DNA from: a virus
IMG/VR virus record: IMGVR_UViG_3300046007_009406
Location: 1 to 20,370 of that record
Length of the DNA: 20,370 nt
Reading direction: 5' to 3' (one strand)
The position numbers and the translations under genes are program-made. Numbering within the stretch: position 1 is the first letter of the stretch; every line of letters starts with the position of its first letter. A model generated the notes under the pieces. That model worked only from the letters and a program-made list of their open reading frames with translations, ran no database searches and was not told where the DNA came from. Of the stretch, positions 1,109 through 17,855 are shown one piece after another.

Positions 1109-1624
1109 CTAAAGCCCCCCGGCCTGGCTCAGCCGCTGCCACTGCTCGGCGAAGAACTGGGCGAGCGGGTGCTTGTCGAGCGCTGGCTTGATCCAGTTCC
1201 GGCCTGGCAGCGCTCGGCCGCTGGCGGTGATCCGGTCTTCGAGGATGGACCTGGCGTAGTGGAACCCATCCTCGCTGACCGGATCCCAGGTAAACGTGAT
1301 CGTTGACCCTCGCGGGTTGTCCTGGCGCCGCTGCGAGTTCAGAAAGTCACCGGAGTCGACGATGTTGCGCGGGCTGGAGGCGATGGTGTAGGGCAAGCCG
1401 CCTTGTGCCTTCAAGACCTTATTCTTCTGGCGAAACGTCTTGGCTTTGTTGAACTTGCCGTAGCGGTAGGTTATCCCTGGCCATGGATACTGAACCGCCT
1501 TGATTTCTTCCTTCAGTTGCGGGCCGATTACATCGCCGTACTTCGCCATGATTATCGGCACACGCAACAGTAGCTTTTTGGATGTAAACCCGGTTAGCTT
1601 TAGATCAACAGTAATCCTAGCCAT
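1109..1624 (-). CDS. Putative head-tail/tail-completion protein (HK97 gp10-like)
   Basis: The protein has 171 residues from ATG at 1622-1624. A longer frame to 1663 exists, but the ATG used here overlaps the stop of the preceding minus-strand gene by 8 nt (ATGGCTAG), the same coupling used elsewhere in the window. An N-terminal beta start (MARITVDLKLTGF) is followed by a helical segment with AKYGDVIGPQLKEEI, then SSPRNIVDSGDFLNS, a beta stretch STITFTWDPV, the GFHYA motif, and near the C-terminus GRNWIKPALDKH. This order matches small neck/tail-completion proteins of the HK97 gp10 kind that connect the tail tube to the head. It is encoded on the opposite strand to the other tail genes, which is unusual. 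Family placement is from motif pattern only. Confidence 0.5.
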   Translation of the reverse strand: MARITVDLKLTGFTSKKLLLRVPIIMAKYGDVIGPQLKEEIKAVQYPWPGITYRYGKFNKAKTFRQKNKVLKAQGGLPYTIASSPRNIVDSGDFLNSQRRQDNPRGSTITFTWDPVSEDGFHYARSILEDRITASGRALPGRNWIKPALDKHPLAQFFAEQWQRLSQAGGL

Positions 1625-2012
1625 CGACGTACACCGCGAGTCGGATGCGGTCACCGATAACACTCTGCATTATGCCGCCGATCAGCCCTGTGGAGCCGTA
1701 GGGGTGGCGCTCCTGCAATACCTCACACCTGGCGGGCGGCTTGCTGCTGAACACCAGCAGCCCCCTCACGCCGGCCTGGATCCTGGCGTCCAGGGCCTGA
1801 GGGTTCACCGCGTAGCCGTCATAGGTGAGCCGGTCAGTGTCCACGCCTGGGAACCCAGACCCGTTGCGGCCCCCCTCGCGCAGGAACAACGACACGATGA
1901 TCTGCTCGGTTTTGGGGACGATGTTCCCGGTTACTGGATCTTCAATGGTGCCGATGTCCACAACATCGAATGTTGCCGTGGCGTTGACCTGGCCTAGAAG
2001 TGCGCTGCTCAT
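1617..2012 (-). CDS. Phage neck/tail-associated protein of unknown function
   Basis: The protein has 131 residues and starts at ATG 2010-2012 (MSSALLGQVNATATFDVVD). Its stop TAG overlaps the next gene by 8 nt. The sequence is mostly predicted beta strand, with a loop rich in Gly and Asn (REGGRNGSGFPGVDTD), then GYAVNPQALDARIQAGVRG, and a C-terminal strand IGDRIRLAVYVDG. Size, composition and coupling to the gp10-like gene suggest a head-closure, stopper or other neck component. I do not recognise a named family. No clear Shine-Dalgarno precedes the start. Confidence 0.4.
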   Translation of the reverse strand: MSSALLGQVNATATFDVVDIGTIEDPVTGNIVPKTEQIIVSLFLREGGRNGSGFPGVDTDRLTYDGYAVNPQALDARIQAGVRGLLVFSSKPPARCEVLQERHPYGSTGLIGGIMQSVIGDRIRLAVYVDG

Positions 2013-2344: not shown

Positions 2345-5176
2345 ATGACAGAGAATCTGGGTGATGCGCTGCTGGTCGTCCGCGCCGACACCACACAACT
2401 GGACGCGGGCTTCAGGCACGCCGAGGAACGGGCTCGCCAGGCTGGGGCGTCAGCTCAGGAGGCCTTCCAGGCACCGGCGAACAGCATCGCGGCATTGCAG
2501 GCAAGGCTTGCCGAACTGCGCCAGGCCTTCAACGTCGCAGAGATCGGGTCGGCTGAGTTCAACAAGCTGCGAAATCAAATCCTGGGGGTTGAGGCAGCGC
2601 TGAAAACAGCAGGGGCAGCAGGGAATAGCCTGTCCGTGCTCAACGCCAAGTTGCAGGGACTGCAACAAGCTTTGCAAGCCGTTGATATTGGTAGCCAAGC
2701 ATTCCGCAATATCGAAGCGGAGATTAAAAATATCCAACGCCAACTAGCGACGGTAGGGGCATCCGCCAACAGCCTTACGGCGCTGAATGCCAGGCTGCAG
2801 GAACTGCAGCAGGCCCTGCAGCGGGTTGACGTTGGCTCCCAGGCGTTCCGCGACCTCCAGCGCGAGATCCAGCGCACAGAGCGAACCCTGGCGACCGTCG
2901 GCGCGGTCGGCAACAGCATCACAGGGCTGAGCGCCAAGTTGGCCGGCCTGCAGCAGTCATTCCGGTCGGTTGAGATCGGCTCCCAGGAGTTCCGCAAGCT
3001 CCAGCGCGAGATCCAGCGCACAGAGCGAGAGCTGGCCCGCGTCGATCAGACCCTGACGGGCCGGCTGGCCAGGGGTGCCCGTGGGTTCGGCGCAGAGGCC
3101 CTGCTGGCCCTCGGGGCACGTGGTGCTGCCGCCACTGCGCCGGTGATCGCCGCTGGCATGTTCCTGAAAAGCTCCATCGATCAGGCGGTCGAGCTGGAGA
3201 CCGTCACCCGCAAACTGACGGTGACCCTTGGCCCGCAGGGTGCCGCGGGTGCAATCAATTTTACCCGGGGGATCTCGCGGGAGCTGGGGCTCTCGTTTGA
3301 GACGCTGGTCGGGACTTACAGCAGCTTCACCGCAGCCGCCACGGCGGCGAACATCCCGATCGAGCAGCAACGGCAGCTGTTCACCTCGGTCAGCCGTGCG
3401 GCACAGGCCTACGGGCTGAGCAATGACCAGGTGGGCGGGACGTTCCTGGCGCTGCAGCAGGTGGCCAGCAAGGGGACGGTGAGCATGGAGGAGCTTCGCC
3501 TGCAGCTTGCTGAACGCCTTCCCGTGGCGCTGTCGGCTACCGCCAAGGGGCTGGGCATCACGCAGCGCGATCTGATCAAGCTGGTTGAATCAGGAAAGCT
3601 GACCGCTACTCAGTTCTTCCCGGCTCTGTCCCGGGGCCTGGATGAGCTGACCAAGGGCGCGGCTGGACTGGAGACATCAGCGCAGATATTTCAGCGCTTT
3701 AGCAATGCGTGGCAAGAGTTACAGCAAAGTGCAGGCACCAATTTGCTACCCGCCGTAACCGCGTCGGTCATTGAACTTACCAAGGCGCTGGAATACTCTA
3801 GGGATAAACAGGTTTCCGAGATATTTGCCTATGATTTCGGCCTGTCAATAGAAAGAGCAGAGCAGGCGGCTGGCGCCTTGCAATCTATACGGCAGCGCTA
3901 TAACTTAACCGAGCGGCAAGCAAGAAATATTACTAGCCAGGCTTTCGCATCTACTGGCGTAGAACCTGATATTTTTCGCCAGCGAATTTTAAACAACGAA
4001 CAATTTCTAGATCTTCTGGGGCAGCTAAACATCAAAGCCGCCGAGTTCAGGAAAAACAATCGCGACACTGTAGGCGAAATCAAAGCCCAGGAGGCGGCGA
4101 TTGCAGCCACCAATGAACAGGCCCGCCTTCGCAACCAGGAGACACAGAAATCCCTGGATCTGGAGCTCCAGCGCTCCAAGTTGCTGCAACAGGAGGCCAA
4201 CGCATCCGCCCGCCTGGCGGGTTCCCGCCGCACGCCAGGCCTCGACGAGGCAGGCCGCGCCAGCCTCGAAGCTGAGCTGACCGTTGGCGAGAAAATCAGG
4301 GCGCTGCAAATCTCCCGGCTGGAGCTGGCCAGGGAACAGGCCAAGCTGCCAGGCACGGGTGACGGCAAGGAAGGCAGCCAGTCCCTCGCCAAGCTGGCGG
4401 AGCTGCAATCCCAGGTCCGCACCGGCGAAATCGATGTAGCAGCGGCCCAGCTGCAGGGATCCAGGGCCACCGCTGACGCGCTGCGGAGCCAGCAGGAGCG
4501 GGTTCGCCAGCAGCGGCTCGAATCCCAGGCCGCCGCGGATCGCCTCCAGATCACCCGAGAGCAGACCGCGCTGGAGGCTGCCGCCGCCGCATCGCAGGGC
4601 CAGGTTTCGGCCACGGCGCTGCTTCAGCTCAACCAGCGTGCCTCCCTGGCGGAGAAGCTCCGGATCCTCGACGCGGCCCGCGGCGGCTTGGCCACCGAGC
4701 TGGCCAGGGGGCCAGAGGCTGACCGCGTGGTGATGGAGGAAATCTCCGGCCGGATCGCCCGCGCCAATGCCGATGTGCGCCAGGCCTACGCTGAGGCGGG
4801 GCTGCAGCTCACCACCAACGCCAGGACCGCAGCGGAGGCACTCCGGGGGGCACAGCAAAACCTGCGGGGTGTTCTGCGTGGTGGCTTCGATCTGCTGACA
4901 CCAGAACTGCAGCGGCAGCAGCTGCAGCAGGCGCGAGCGTCGATCCAACCACTCGTTGACCGAGGCGTGATTCGCACCGGGCTGGACATCAGCACTCCCG
5001 AGAAGCTTTTTGCCGTGGCCGGGTTCGCTGAGCAGCTGGTCCCGGCCCAAAAGGCGCTGGAAAATGCCATCAACGAAAACGCCAGGGCAACCCAGGCCCT
5101 CACCGAGAAAAACTGGAACGTCTACGTTCAGGTTCCAGGATCCGGCCCTGTGCCGATGCCCCTCCCCCGCACATGA
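2345..5176 (+). CDS. Tail tape measure protein
   Basis: The protein has 943 residues; AGGGA lies just before ATG 2345. The tape measure fills the tail tube, sets tail length and takes part in DNA ejection. Residues 1-45 precede four tandem 48-residue helical repeats (46-237). A small-residue, hydrophobic stretch follows around 243-277 (ALLALGARGAAATAPVIAAG). Residues from about 275 to 470 match the tape-measure core domain (FLKSSIDQAVELETVTRKL, GISRELGLSFETLVG, LQLAERLPVALSATAKGLG, GKLTATQFFPALSRGL). Long Gln/Ala/Arg-rich coiled coil runs from about 560 to 800. At the usual 0.15 nm per residue the protein would span roughly 140 nm, an inference only. The stretch at about 3700-4080 is richer in A/T than its flanks. 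The stop overlaps the next start by ATGA. Confidence 0.95.
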   Translation: MTENLGDALLVVRADTTQLDAGFRHAEERARQAGASAQEAFQAPANSIAALQARLAELRQAFNVAEIGSAEFNKLRNQILGVEAALKTAGAAGNSLSVLNAKLQGLQQALQAVDIGSQAFRNIEAEIKNIQRQLATVGASANSLTALNARLQELQQALQRVDVGSQAFRDLQREIQRTERTLATVGAVGNSITGLSAKLAGLQQSFRSVEIGSQEFRKLQREIQRTERELARVDQTLTGRLARGARGFGAEALLALGARGAAATAPVIAAGMFLKSSIDQAVELETVTRKLTVTLGPQGAAGAINFTRGISRELGLSFETLVGTYSSFTAAATAANIPIEQQRQLFTSVSRAAQAYGLSNDQVGGTFLALQQVASKGTVSMEELRLQLAERLPVALSATAKGLGITQRDLIKLVESGKLTATQFFPALSRGLDELTKGAAGLETSAQIFQRFSNAWQELQQSAGTNLLPAVTASVIELTKALEYSRDKQVSEIFAYDFGLSIERAEQAAGALQSIRQRYNLTERQARNITSQAFASTGVEPDIFRQRILNNEQFLDLLGQLNIKAAEFRKNNRDTVGEIKAQEAAIAATNEQARLRNQETQKSLDLELQRSKLLQQEANASARLAGSRRTPGLDEAGRASLEAELTVGEKIRALQISRLELAREQAKLPGTGDGKEGSQSLAKLAELQSQVRTGEIDVAAAQLQGSRATADALRSQQERVRQQRLESQAAADRLQITREQTALEAAAAASQGQVSATALLQLNQRASLAEKLRILDAARGGLATELARGPEADRVVMEEISGRIARANADVRQAYAEAGLQLTTNARTAAEALRGAQQNLRGVLRGGFDLLTPELQRQQLQQARASIQPLVDRGVIRTGLDISTPEKLFAVAGFAEQLVPAQKALENAINENARATQALTEKNWNVYVQVPGSGPVPMPLPRT
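2480..3055 (+). repeat. Four tandem 144-bp repeats in tape measure gene
   Basis: Units at 2480-2623, 2624-2767, 2768-2911 and 2912-3055 each encode exactly 48 residues. Each begins NS[IL], continues L.A[KR]L..L[RQ]Q[AS]F/L, then a [VED][IV]GS..F motif at unit positions 20-27, and ends in a charged helix. There is no insertion or deletion between units. Units 3 and 4 share the stretch LQREIQRTER. Unit 2 is richer in A/T than the others. Confidence 0.9.
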
Positions 5177-9174: not shown

Positions 9175-10094
9175 TGGCAACATTCATAAATGTTGACTAT
9201 GAAACTATCAGCTTACTGGAGCAAAACAGGCGCCAGGTTGATGCTAACCGCATCAGCTCACTTGAAGGTGTCGAGCAGAAGCGGTTAGGGGATCAGATCC
9301 AGGCCACCCGCCAAAGGCAACGGCGGCCCGTGCGCGGTCGGCTGAGGCCCGGCAGGCGCGAGGAGCTGGCGGCTACGGCTAAGCCGATCAACCTGATTGT
9401 TCTTGAGCTTTCATATAATCGGAATGATTCTATAGGGATTCCTGATTTAAGAATCTATGAATTGATGCCTTCACAACCTGGTGTTTATGATTTAACAGTT
9501 AGAAATCAAACCGGATATGGAACTGGTTGGTTGTGGACTGAATTCAGGGAAGCTTTTGCAAACGATATTACTCCTTATTCGCGAGGATACCCTTATACTA
9601 ATGGCAGTTTTCAAAATCAAGTTTTTTGGCCTGGAGATGATATAACTAATTCCGATCTCCCACAGCTTAATCTTAGTCCCGAAAAAAGATATGATTTTTT
9701 TGTAATTGATTTAACAAAAAATCTGGAACTTATAGAAAGTCCTTTTAACACAAGCACAACTTTTAATTATGAAGTCTATGTCTCACAGAGAAAATATATC
9801 CCGGTAGAATATGAGAATGTTGTCGATAAAAGTTTAGTATTAAATGTTTATCAGGTTTCCACAAGACCAGGAAATGCTTATACATATGGCCAATCATATA
9901 ATAATTTTCCAGTAAATTTACTGGATTTGCCGAAGTTTATTGCGCTTGGCTCAAAAAATAAAAAAACAATAAACATCAATACAGAAGTAGATTTTAGGCT
10001 AGTAGATGTTGCAAATCTCGCATTACCTGGCAAAAAAGTTCTAAACATAAAAATTGTCAATTCAAAGTTTAATAAAATTGAAATCCTCACATGA
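9174..10094 (+). CDS. Chimeric tail-associated protein, unknown function
   Basis: The protein has 306 residues, coupled by TGATG upstream and ATGA downstream. Residues 1 to about 75 are helical and basic (LLEQNRRQVDANRISSLEG, RQRQRRPVRGRLRPGRREE), in G/C-rich DNA: 48 of 60 bases at 9301-9360 are G or C. From about residue 76 the base composition flips (15 of 60 G+C at 9661-9720) and the protein becomes beta-rich with many Asn, Tyr and Phe residues. Motifs there include NLIVLELSYNRNDSIG, GWLWTEFREAFAND and KYIPVEYENVVDKSLV. The frame stays open throughout, so this is a fused gene rather than a broken one. The likely reading is an anchoring N-terminal part joined to an imported binding domain. 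No enzyme motif is visible. Confidence 0.6.
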   Translation: MATFINVDYETISLLEQNRRQVDANRISSLEGVEQKRLGDQIQATRQRQRRPVRGRLRPGRREELAATAKPINLIVLELSYNRNDSIGIPDLRIYELMPSQPGVYDLTVRNQTGYGTGWLWTEFREAFANDITPYSRGYPYTNGSFQNQVFWPGDDITNSDLPQLNLSPEKRYDFFVIDLTKNLELIESPFNTSTTFNYEVYVSQRKYIPVEYENVVDKSLVLNVYQVSTRPGNAYTYGQSYNNFPVNLLDLPKFIALGSKNKKTININTEVDFRLVDVANLALPGKKVLNIKIVNSKFNKIEILT

Positions 10095-10216
10095 AACCCC
10101 CAGCCAACCCAGCCGCCCTGCTCCAGCAGTCGCAACAGCAAACAAACGCCAACCGCTACCTGCATCTCAAGCAGCAGCAATACGCTAAGCTGCTGAAACA
10201 AGCCACCACCAAATGA
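10091..10216 (+). CDS. 41-residue micro-protein, Gln-rich
   Basis: A 41-codon frame starts at ATG 10091 (MKPPANPAALLQQSQQQTNA) and ends KLLKQATTK. It overlaps the previous stop by ATGA and the next start by ATGA, so it is locked into the coupled operon on both sides. That arrangement, with no gap, is the main evidence that it is real. The protein is Gln/Ala/Lys-rich, probably helical, with no membrane segment. Its function is unknown; its place directly before the chaperone-like gene suggests a small tail-assembly helper, but this is only inference. Confidence 0.6.
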   Translation: MKPPANPAALLQQSQQQTNANRYLHLKQQQYAKLLKQATTK

Positions 10217-10851
10217 CCGGCCTACCCTACATCAAGCCACCCGAGACATTCCCCCCGCGTCGGATCGGGAACAACGCGTCGGGAATCCTTGAGGTTCCCG
10301 TCCTTGGCGGGTTGGCGGTGGAAGAGATTGACACAGTGACCAAACTGCTGGATGGCTTTCCCTCCGCACAGGTGGCCGAAGCAGAGGCAGCCATTGCCAT
10401 AGCAGCTGCGGAGGGCTGCACGCCCATGGAGGCCCACCGCGTCGTTAAAGACGGTCTAAGCGGTCTGCCCCTTGATGATCCATCGGCTGAAACCATGCGA
10501 CTGCGCCACGCTGCGCGGATTCACGAAGTCCTCAGGATTTACGAGGCGGCCGGCCGGCTCAACAGGTTGTCAAGCTTGACCGCAATCATCCGCCATCGGC
10601 TGAACCGGCCAGAGTGGACCATGGCCGAAACCCTCAAGCTGCCACGGTTGCTGGGCGATGGCCTCTGGAAGCTGGTGATGGATGAGCAGGACGCCGAGGA
10701 TTTGCCAGCTGAGCCATTCACCGAGGACGACCTAAAAAAGCCGCCAGTGGGCGATGGAAGCCCGAGCGAACAGACTGGGGAGCCGTTTTCTGGCGGCTGT
10801 GCCACGCCTACCCCGGACAGTGGCACCGGGCCACCTTCGCCCGCGAGCTGA
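10213..10851 (+). CDS. Tail assembly chaperone, short (gpG-like) product
   Basis: The zero-frame product has 212 residues. It is mainly helical in the middle (VEEIDTVTKLLDGFPSAQVA, RHAARIHEVLRIYEAAGRLN, WTMAETLKLPRLLGDGLWKL), with an acidic segment (MDEQDAEDLPAEPFTEDDL). After the slippery site at 10734-10740 the sequence becomes low-complexity Pro/Ser/Gly/Thr (residues about 175-212), typical of sequence read past a frameshift site. In lambda-like phages gpG and the frameshifted gpGT bind the tape measure and recruit tail-tube subunits, then are lost from the mature tail. Such genes normally lie just before the tape measure; here it lies 5 kb after the tape-measure stop. The identification rests on the frameshift architecture, size and tail-operon context rather than on a family motif. 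Confidence 0.6.
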   Translation: MTGLPYIKPPETFPPRRIGNNASGILEVPVLGGLAVEEIDTVTKLLDGFPSAQVAEAEAAIAIAAAEGCTPMEAHRVVKDGLSGLPLDDPSAETMRLRHAARIHEVLRIYEAAGRLNRLSSLTAIIRHRLNRPEWTMAETLKLPRLLGDGLWKLVMDEQDAEDLPAEPFTEDDLKKPPVGDGSPSEQTGEPFSGGCATPTPDSGTGPPSPAS

Positions 10852-11396
10852 GGGCAACGGTCCTCCGCGCCTGGCGGGAGCTTCAGGCGATCGAGCGGGA
10901 GCAGGCTGCCAGGGCCGAGCTTCCCATCGCTCAGGTGTCGGCGATGCTAGCGAACATCAACCGAGATACGGCCAAGCAACCGCAACCCTGGCCGGTTCAG
11001 GATTTCTGCTTCTACCGCGACCGTGGCAGCACCGGCGACAGCAGCGGAATCCCGCCAGAGGCCGCAGCTGTGGCCCTGAGCCTGAAACACGAGAACCGCT
11101 GCCCCGAGATCCTGCTGGTTGCCTGGCCGGCAATCGTTGAAGCTGCCGACGACACCACCAAACCCCCGCCAGTGAGGGCGCTGCACAGCGACGACGGCGC
11201 CGTGTGGGTGCTGGCGCCACAGATGATGCAAGGCGGCTGCCGTGGTGGGCTGGTGGCCGTGCGCGGCACCGTGTCGGGGCCGGTGCTGCTGCGGGAGCTT
11301 GATCGGCCCCTGCTCACCCATCGGCTGGTGCTGCCCAGGCGGACCGGCTACGGCTGGCTGGAGGCCAGTCTGTTCCTGGCGGGTGATGCAAACTAG
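10213..11396 (+). CDS. Tail assembly chaperone, -1 frameshift fusion (gpGT-like)
   Basis: Slipping back one base at 10734-10740 joins 176 codons of the first frame to 218 codons of the next, giving about 394 residues and ending at TAG 11394-11396. I read the -1 frame from 10740 onward: it begins AASGRWKPERTDWGAVFWRL and stays open all the way. It contains FARELRATVLRAWRELQAIE, then MLANINRDTAKQPQPWPVQD just before FCFY. That string resembles the short basic segments ending in 'xDF' found in gpT-type tails. A further domain of about 120 residues follows (HENRCPEILLVAWPAIVEAA, RLVLPRRTGYGWLEASLFLA). The only independent start I find for this frame is a GTG at 10935, without a good ribosome-binding site, which favours expression by frameshifting. 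Confidence 0.65.
10723..10763 (+). promoter_or_regulatory. Programmed -1 ribosomal frameshift signal
   Basis: The slippery heptamer A_AAA_AAG occupies 10734-10740 in the correct phase (codons CTA AAA AAG), the same heptamer as in E. coli dnaX. An SD-like GAGGA lies at 10723-10727, 6 nt upstream. Downstream, GGGC 10749-10752 pairs with GCCC 10760-10763 around a 7-base loop, 8 nt after the slip site. A longer pairing, CCGCCAG 10741-10747 with CTGGCGG 10790-10796, could enclose it. All three parts of a bacterial -1 frameshift cassette are therefore present. Confidence 0.75.
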
Positions 11397-11399
11397 ACC

Positions 11400-11873
11400 A
11401 TGAACATCCGCACCCTACGGACATCGCTTGAGGCAACCCTGGCCAGCCAGCTGGGGACCTACACCTATGCCAATGGGGCAACCACTCCGGCGATTGCGGC
11501 GCGTGCCTGGGGTGAAGCGCTGCCGCCGCGTACCACGGTCAGTGGGATGGAGTGCCTGATCATAAGAAATCCTGAGCTAGATCCAATCGTTAAGCAATAT
11601 CGAGATGAAGTGGCGTTTCAGAAGTGGACTATATTTCTGGTTGATTGGGGCGGCTCCGTTGACTTGCACGATGCCGCTTCTCGCCTGCTCTGGGCCTACC
11701 CTGGCAGCGAAACCTCAGTAGTGCAGGCACCGCAAAGCGTTGGGCCTAAAGCGTGGATGCGGGTTGAGTTGACCACATCGCCCGACTTCTCGCTTGAGAC
11801 TGGCGGACTGCTGCTTGAAGACGGCGGCTATCTGCTGCTTGAAGACGGCGGCAAGCTGTTACTGGAGGTGTAA
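11400..11873 (+). CDS. Tail-associated protein with C-terminal LLLEDGG repeats
   Basis: The protein has 157 residues, starting 3 nt after the frameshift gene stops. Residues 1-130 form a compact mixed alpha/beta unit (MNIRTLRTSLEATLASQLGT, RAWGEALPPRT, FQKWTIFLVDWGGSVDLHDA, SRLLWAYPGSET, WMRVELTTSPDF). Size and layout resemble tail-terminator or minor tail proteins, but this is a weak resemblance. Residues 132-157 are three short repeats (ETGGLLLEDGGYLLLEDGGK), a tail motif common in phage structural proteins that probably forms beta strands at an interface. Its last codons contain GGAGGTG, which serves as ribosome-binding site for the fibre gene 2 nt downstream, so the two genes are expressed together. 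Confidence 0.5.
   Translation: MNIRTLRTSLEATLASQLGTYTYANGATTPAIAARAWGEALPPRTTVSGMECLIIRNPELDPIVKQYRDEVAFQKWTIFLVDWGGSVDLHDAASRLLWAYPGSETSVVQAPQSVGPKAWMRVELTTSPDFSLETGGLLLEDGGYLLLEDGGKLLLEV
11808..11852 (+). repeat. 21-bp tandem repeat encoding LLLEDGG
   Basis: The 21-base unit beginning CTGCTGCTTGAAGACGGCGG is identical at 11808-11828 and 11832-11852, set 24 nt apart, so it adds eight residues per unit. A third, diverged unit precedes it (ETGG) and a fourth follows (LLLEV). Such perfect short repeats allow unit number to change by slippage. Confidence 0.85.
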
Positions 11874-17237: not shown

Positions 17238-17855
17238 TCAAATCCTCGCGGTAACAACGATTTCACCCTGGTCCTGATATTTCCCCTGGCGGTCCTCGTA
17301 AGTGGTCTCGCAGGGTTCCCCCTCGAAGAACAGCGCTTGAACGATTCCTTCGTTGGCGTAGATTCGACAGTCGGCGCCGCTGGAGTTGCTGAACTCAAGG
17401 GTTAGGTGCCCCTCCCAGCCAGCCTCGCCAGGGGTGATGTTCGCGATCACGCCTAGGCGGGCGTAAGTGCTCTTGCCTAGAAAAATGCAGGTGATGTTGC
17501 TGGGGATCTTGAGCCGCTCCAGCGCCACGCCAAGCCCATAGGAGTGGGCTGGCAGGATGAAGTAGTCGCCGTCTTCGTCTTGATGCAGCGCCGTGGGTTC
17601 CAGGTTGTCGGGGTTGAACCGCTTGGGATTCATCACCGTGCCGGGGATGTGGCGGAAAATGAGAAACTCCTTGGGGCTCAGGCGGAGGTCGTAGCCGTAG
17701 GAGCTGATGCCGTAGGAGAGGACGGGGCGCCGTCTGTGGCCGATCGCCAAGGGATCGGGATCCAGTAACTTCACCTTCCGCACCAGGCGCGGCTCAAACG
17801 GCGCAATCATGCCGGCGGCGGCTTGTTCGCGGATCCAGCGGTCGTTCTTAAGCAT
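17238..17855 (-). CDS. dcd: dCTP deaminase
   Basis: The protein has 205 residues, starting MLKNDRWIREQAAAGMIAPF; its ATG overlaps the upstream stop by 8 nt. dCTP deaminase converts dCTP to dUTP, feeding dTMP synthesis. Family signatures are clear: SYGISSYGYDLRLSP at 47-61, LPAHSYGLGVALERLKIPSN at 101-120, GKSTYARLGV at 127-136 (Ser129 and Arg133 in the usual nucleotide-binding positions), GWEGHLTLEFSN at 146-157 with the expected catalytic Glu154, IYANEGIVQALFF at 165-177, and YEDRQGKYQDQ at 186-196. Length is normal for the family and no key residue is missing. The form resembles the cyanobacterial type. The sequence cannot tell a plain deaminase from a bifunctional deaminase/dUTPase. In a phage it would serve nucleotide supply for replication. 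Confidence 0.95.
   Translation of the reverse strand: MLKNDRWIREQAAAGMIAPFEPRLVRKVKLLDPDPLAIGHRRRPVLSYGISSYGYDLRLSPKEFLIFRHIPGTVMNPKRFNPDNLEPTALHQDEDGDYFILPAHSYGLGVALERLKIPSNITCIFLGKSTYARLGVIANITPGEAGWEGHLTLEFSNSSGADCRIYANEGIVQALFFEGEPCETTYEDRQGKYQDQGEIVVTARI

Follow-up and report, generated by a model that had tools for sequence, protein, structure and literature searches.

The window analysed here, the whole 20,370-base IMG/VR virus record IMGVR_UViG_3300046007_009406 (positions 1 to 20,370), contains two overlapping reading frames, G and T, which we propose are joined by programmed -1 ribosomal frameshifting, as in the gpG/gpGT pair of lambda (probability about 0.88). The frameshift itself is very likely; its products are best read as tail assembly chaperones of the gpG/gpGT type. 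The proposal draws on the observed anatomy of the junction, the conservation of its slippery heptamer, selection on the -1 frame and a family-level similarity to gpT, from which slipping, a rate of slipping and a chaperone function would follow. Frameshifted tail chaperones are already known in phages, and our comparison points to one in the cyanosiphoviruses. This gives a firm comparative basis for such a gene in phages whose public isolate records separate G and T, and we found no report of a cyanosiphovirus G/GT frameshift in the open-access literature. The hosts are probably cyanobacteria, judging solely by the isolate relatives.

The slip site and the two reading frames

The features of the region are as follows.

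10213 to 10851, + strand: G ORF (0 frame), 212 aa, putative tail assembly chaperone, with homologues in isolates and IMG/VR loci
10723 to 10727, + strand: Shine-Dalgarno (SD)-like GAGGA that may stimulate slipping, 6 nt before the heptamer (sequence and GAG bias)
10734 to 10740, + strand: slippery heptamer A_AAA_AAG, in phase, with either this form or G_GGA_AAG at the junction in 86/86 loci
10740 to 11396, + strand: T part, -1 frame, 218 aa and TAG, making a GT of 394 aa, with PHROG 34388 and Phage_tail_T matches
10741 to 10796, + strand: two candidate hairpins past the heptamer (GGGC/GCCC and CCGCCAG/CTGGCGG), probably incidental by folding z and poor conservation
11400 to 11873, + strand: p11400 gene after GT (in the isolates after the HNH gene), a tail or connector protein by context

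A preliminary description of this DNA had placed A_AAA_AAG in phase at 10734-10740, which a letter by letter check bears out: the 0-frame codons at the heptamer are CTA AAA AAG, the phase for tandem -1 slippage. From 10713 onward the -1 frame is open; after a slip it would be read from G10740 (GCC GCC AGT) to the TAG at 11394-11396, and the 218 additional codons described earlier are indeed present. The predicted products are a 212-aa G and a 394-aa GT fusion (176 + 218 aa), with G residues 1-176 common to both and L-K-K-A-A-S as the junction peptide. By chance, AAAAAAG or GGGAAAG would be expected in phase only 0.005-0.009 times per overlap.

In the mechanism we propose, most ribosomes would translate G (10213-10851) up to its stop codon, giving the 212-aa protein. 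A minority would slip back one base on A_AAA_AAG, probably as the two tRNA-Lys held in the ribosomal P and A sites re-pair, perhaps with help from the GAGGA just upstream, and would continue in the -1 frame to the TAG to make GT. By analogy with lambda, G would coat the tape measure protein and GT would also recruit the tail tube subunit, so that the slip rate would set the G:GT ratio. As in lambda, a -1-frame T follows a 0-frame G, and the slippery heptamer lies close to where G ends. For the lambda gpG/gpGT -1 frameshift we refer to Levin, Hendrix and Casjens (1993) and Xu, Hendrix and Duda (2013/2014), as they are cited in PMC5009743, a review which puts the G:GT molar ratio that lambda requires near 30:1.

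Conservation of the heptamer across relatives

A search with the -1-frame protein gave four close loci and eight isolate phage records (PSS2 three times, S-CRES1-3 and S-CBS2 twice), and a search with the alignment gave 80 IMG/VR loci and one Myxococcales MAG contig. We compared 86 junctions, comprising the window, the 80 IMG/VR loci, PSS2, S-CRES1, S-CRES3, S-CBS2 and the Myxococcales MAG, with S-CRES2 left out. An in-phase slippery heptamer stands at the junction in every one of them (54 G_GGA_AAG and 32 A_AAA_AAG), and in 39 of 39 loci once near-copies are collapsed (19 GGGAAAG and 20 AAAAAAG). Related phages that keep both frames and lack the heptamer, which the preliminary description had suggested looking for as counter-evidence, did not turn up: none of the 86 loci has lost either frame or the heptamer. 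The cyanosiphoviruses PSS2, S-CRES1, S-CRES3 and S-CBS2 share with the window homologous G and T and an in-phase heptamer at the same junction, which is G_GGA_AAG in PSS2 and S-CRES3 and A_AAA_AAG in S-CRES1 and S-CBS2. The lambda heptamer is G_GGA_AAG, the form also found in over half of the loci here.

On the tree of T, eight changes of heptamer type are needed, at least five of them forced by well-supported branches, and the encoded pair switches between KK (L-K-K) and GK (L-G-K) along with the heptamer. With the type having changed at least five to eight times while the residues switched, it is slipperiness that has been kept and not the peptide. The slip site is thus retained while both its letters and the peptide change, from A_AAA_AAG to G_GGA_AAG or the reverse.

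The same comparison bears on two explanations that do not involve the ribosome. Homopolymers are common sites of sequencing errors, and as there is one at the junction, an error of sequencing or assembly might have split a single ORF; the two frames are offset identically in 86 loci drawn from many samples and in isolate genomes, which refutes this and leaves its probability practically nil. RNA polymerase rather than the ribosome might slip on the six-A run, since A6 runs can support transcriptional slippage and the window heptamer contains one. Half of the non-redundant loci have GGGAAAG, without a long homopolymer, and the phase of the heptamer is always that which tandem tRNA slippage requires, so we regard polymerase slippage as extremely improbable.

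The Myxococcales MAG contig (L090:5435-6612) carries the same G/GT pair with G_GGA_AAG, and is likely a prophage or a co-binned viral contig.

Selection on the frames and the start of T

Over the first 20 codons past the heptamer, the -1 frame has a ratio-of-means dN/dS of about 0.43 and the 0 frame one of about 1.4, and the median is 0.36 over the whole T frame and 0.30 in G, all of these being simple pairwise estimates from non-independent pairs with synonymous sites near saturation. Just past the heptamer, purifying selection acts in the -1 frame and not in the 0 frame. Because this constraint sets in just after the heptamer, the T frame is apparently entered there.

T could also be a separate protein, whose translation starts internally (at GTG 10935, for instance) or by re-initiation once G has ended, and the annotators of PSS2, S-CRES and S-CBS2 did give T its own CDS and start; these records hold two separate CDS and no joined one. 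The GTG start had been put forward in the preliminary description as the alternative to check, and it is disfavoured. Among 34 freshwater-type sequences the column reads GTG in one (the window included) and ATG in one, and the rest are mostly CTN or TTG. T opens with conserved AAxG and DW residues, ahead of GTG 10935, and the -1 frame is already constrained right after the heptamer. We therefore reject GTG 10935 as the start of T, since the codon is not kept and conserved T residues precede it, and consider a separate T quite improbable. The earlier remark that T has no good start of its own holds for the family as well, as no start codon is conserved across the T-frame relatives.

In the PSS2, S-CRES1/3 and S-CBS2 records (L006, L007, L008 and L009), where G and T are annotated as two CDS, the T starts chosen fall downstream of the heptamer and lose part of the conserved T N-terminus.

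Candidate stimulatory elements

The arrangement had been described as dnaX-type, and it is in part: A_AAA_AAG and an upstream SD-like element are shared with E. coli dnaX, whereas a stable, conserved downstream stem-loop was not found. In E. coli, dnaX frameshifting requires a downstream stem-loop and gives a truncated product; here a -1 slip would yield the longer product.

The GAGGA reported 6 nt upstream is present at 10723-10727 and is modestly conserved. The first Glu codon of the upstream motif is GAG in 27 of 30 cases, against 64.6% elsewhere in G (P 0.0017, uncorrected and with kinship ignored). This bias lends modest support to an SD-like role, with which it would fit, although codon preference and shared ancestry would fit it too.

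The letters of both proposed hairpins are also as described, with GGGC at 10749-10752 and GCCC at 10760-10763, starting 8 nt downstream of the heptamer, and CCGCCAG (10741-10747) complementary to CTGGCGG (10790-10796). What did not stand is their role as stimulators. Folding of the 62-nt downstream segment gives z = -0.36 in the window and a mean of -0.25 over 39 loci, with control positions ranging from -0.75 to +0.14. The inner GGGC/GCCC hairpin is down to two of four pairs in L003 and L012. The outer stem, with pairs counted by eye, has 7/7 in the window, 6/7 in L002, L003 and L012 and 4/7 in L013, and its 3' arm encodes a conserved F-W motif. As neither hairpin is conserved or exceeds the controls in stability, we reject them as stimulators.

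Identity and fold of G and T

The T part of the window matches PHROG 34388 (E 7e-15), a family of no assigned function. It also resembles the lambda gpT family Phage_tail_T (PF06223), weakly, at E 0.008 and 17 bits, under the Pfam cut-off of 25.9 bits; this match covers residues 42-95, in the helical part of T. The same family is weakly matched by 35 of the 39 T relatives (E up to 0.1; best 6e-6), and such matches, weak but family-wide, support the gpG/gpGT reading given in the preliminary description. The isolate T homologues are 25-30% identical, and T of S-CRES is annotated as a tail assembly protein.

The appended part had been thought about twice too long for a gpT. T measures 205-253 aa in the 39 loci, so about 218 codons is normal within its family. 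In the AlphaFold model of T (pLDDT 83) a helical N-terminal part precedes a beta domain at about residues 147-215, and this predicted C-terminal domain, which is extra with respect to lambda gpT and in its widest limits spans about 141-218, explains the length that had seemed unusual. Its fold matches are weak, a PilZ domain (Z 4.2, 69 residues, rmsd 3.6) and the monocin tail tube (Z 3.2, 69 residues, rmsd 3.3), and for that reason we name no family for it.

G is modelled confidently and mostly helical (AlphaFold, pLDDT 90). In PSS2, S-CRES1, S-CRES3 and S-CBS2 the T frame is preceded by G homologues of 18-25% identity. A tblastn search of isolate phages with G alone gave no match, a Pfam search matched no family to G, and a profile search of solved structures returned none for G or T. 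The matches in a PDB fold search were weak (best Z 5.5 for G and 4.2 for T) and named no chaperone, though either protein may still have a known chaperone fold; the good matches of G in BFVD were without names.

Gene order around the pair

A chaperone pair customarily has the major tail protein gene on one side and the tape measure gene on the other. The pair in the window does not lie there. The order is a structural gene (175-732), two inverted genes (1109-2012, - strand), the tape measure gene (2345-5176), further genes to 10094, and then G, GT, p11400 and a fibre-like gene, so that, unlike in lambda, G-GT is distal to the tape measure gene, 5 kb past its end. The product of gene 175 has a full-length homologue similar to the structural protein S-CBS2 gp20, and we are therefore not certain that this product is the major tail protein. 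Relatives have the pair placed distally as well: a p8770-like gene stands ahead of G in most IMG/VR loci, and the tape measure family, identified in four long records, is upstream of T in all four (the G012 match being below the family cut-off). PSS2, S-CRES and S-CBS2 differ from the window in having G and T upstream of the tape measure, in the order (by position) head-completion genes, G, T, an HNH endonuclease or unnamed minus-strand gene, a p11400-like gene, tail genes and tape measure.

This position raises the question whether the frameshift, though real, might produce some other pair of virion or tail-tip proteins and not tail assembly chaperones. In favour of this, G-GT comes behind the tape measure and distal tail genes both in the window and in its close relatives, no homology of G to chaperones is recognised, and T bears the extra beta domain. 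Yet Phage_tail_T is matched in 35/39 T members, in the isolates the genes for the major tail protein and the tape measure come just after G and T, S-CRES T bears the annotation noted above, and we saw no second G/GT-like pair beside the tape measure gene of the window. We consider a non-chaperone pair unlikely, and the chaperone reading would mean that such a pair need not adjoin the tape measure gene, a rule on which annotators rely.

More tentatively, and with appreciable doubt, the window may represent a group of uncultured, probably cyanobacterial siphoviruses in which the frameshifted pair and the gene following it lie behind the distal tail genes, with an extra C-terminal beta domain of GT that perhaps resembles tail-tube or distal-tail folds. 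If true, chaperone expression would be uncoupled from the tape measure gene while the slip site would still set the ratio.

Several smaller observations were made in the surrounding genes. The two genes at 1109-2012 (- strand) are homologous to PSS2 genes that lie just upstream of PSS2 G and are here inverted between the structural and tape measure genes; the same inverted two-gene arrangement is seen in L091 at 10482-11385. Just before the structural gene of that record, L091:9150-9713 (+ strand) has a weak sigma-70 region 2 match (Pfam E 4.8e-4) and is possibly a phage sigma factor. A 41-aa ORF at 10091-10216 (+ strand; MKPPANPAALLQQSQQQ...) has ATGA overlaps with the preceding gene and with G, and its end is kept in close relatives; the overlaps at both ends suggest translational coupling. 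The C-terminus of p11400 (11780-11870, + strand) contains LLLEDGG repeats. The ORF at 17238-17855 (- strand) reads like a dCTP deaminase, as recognised by eye.
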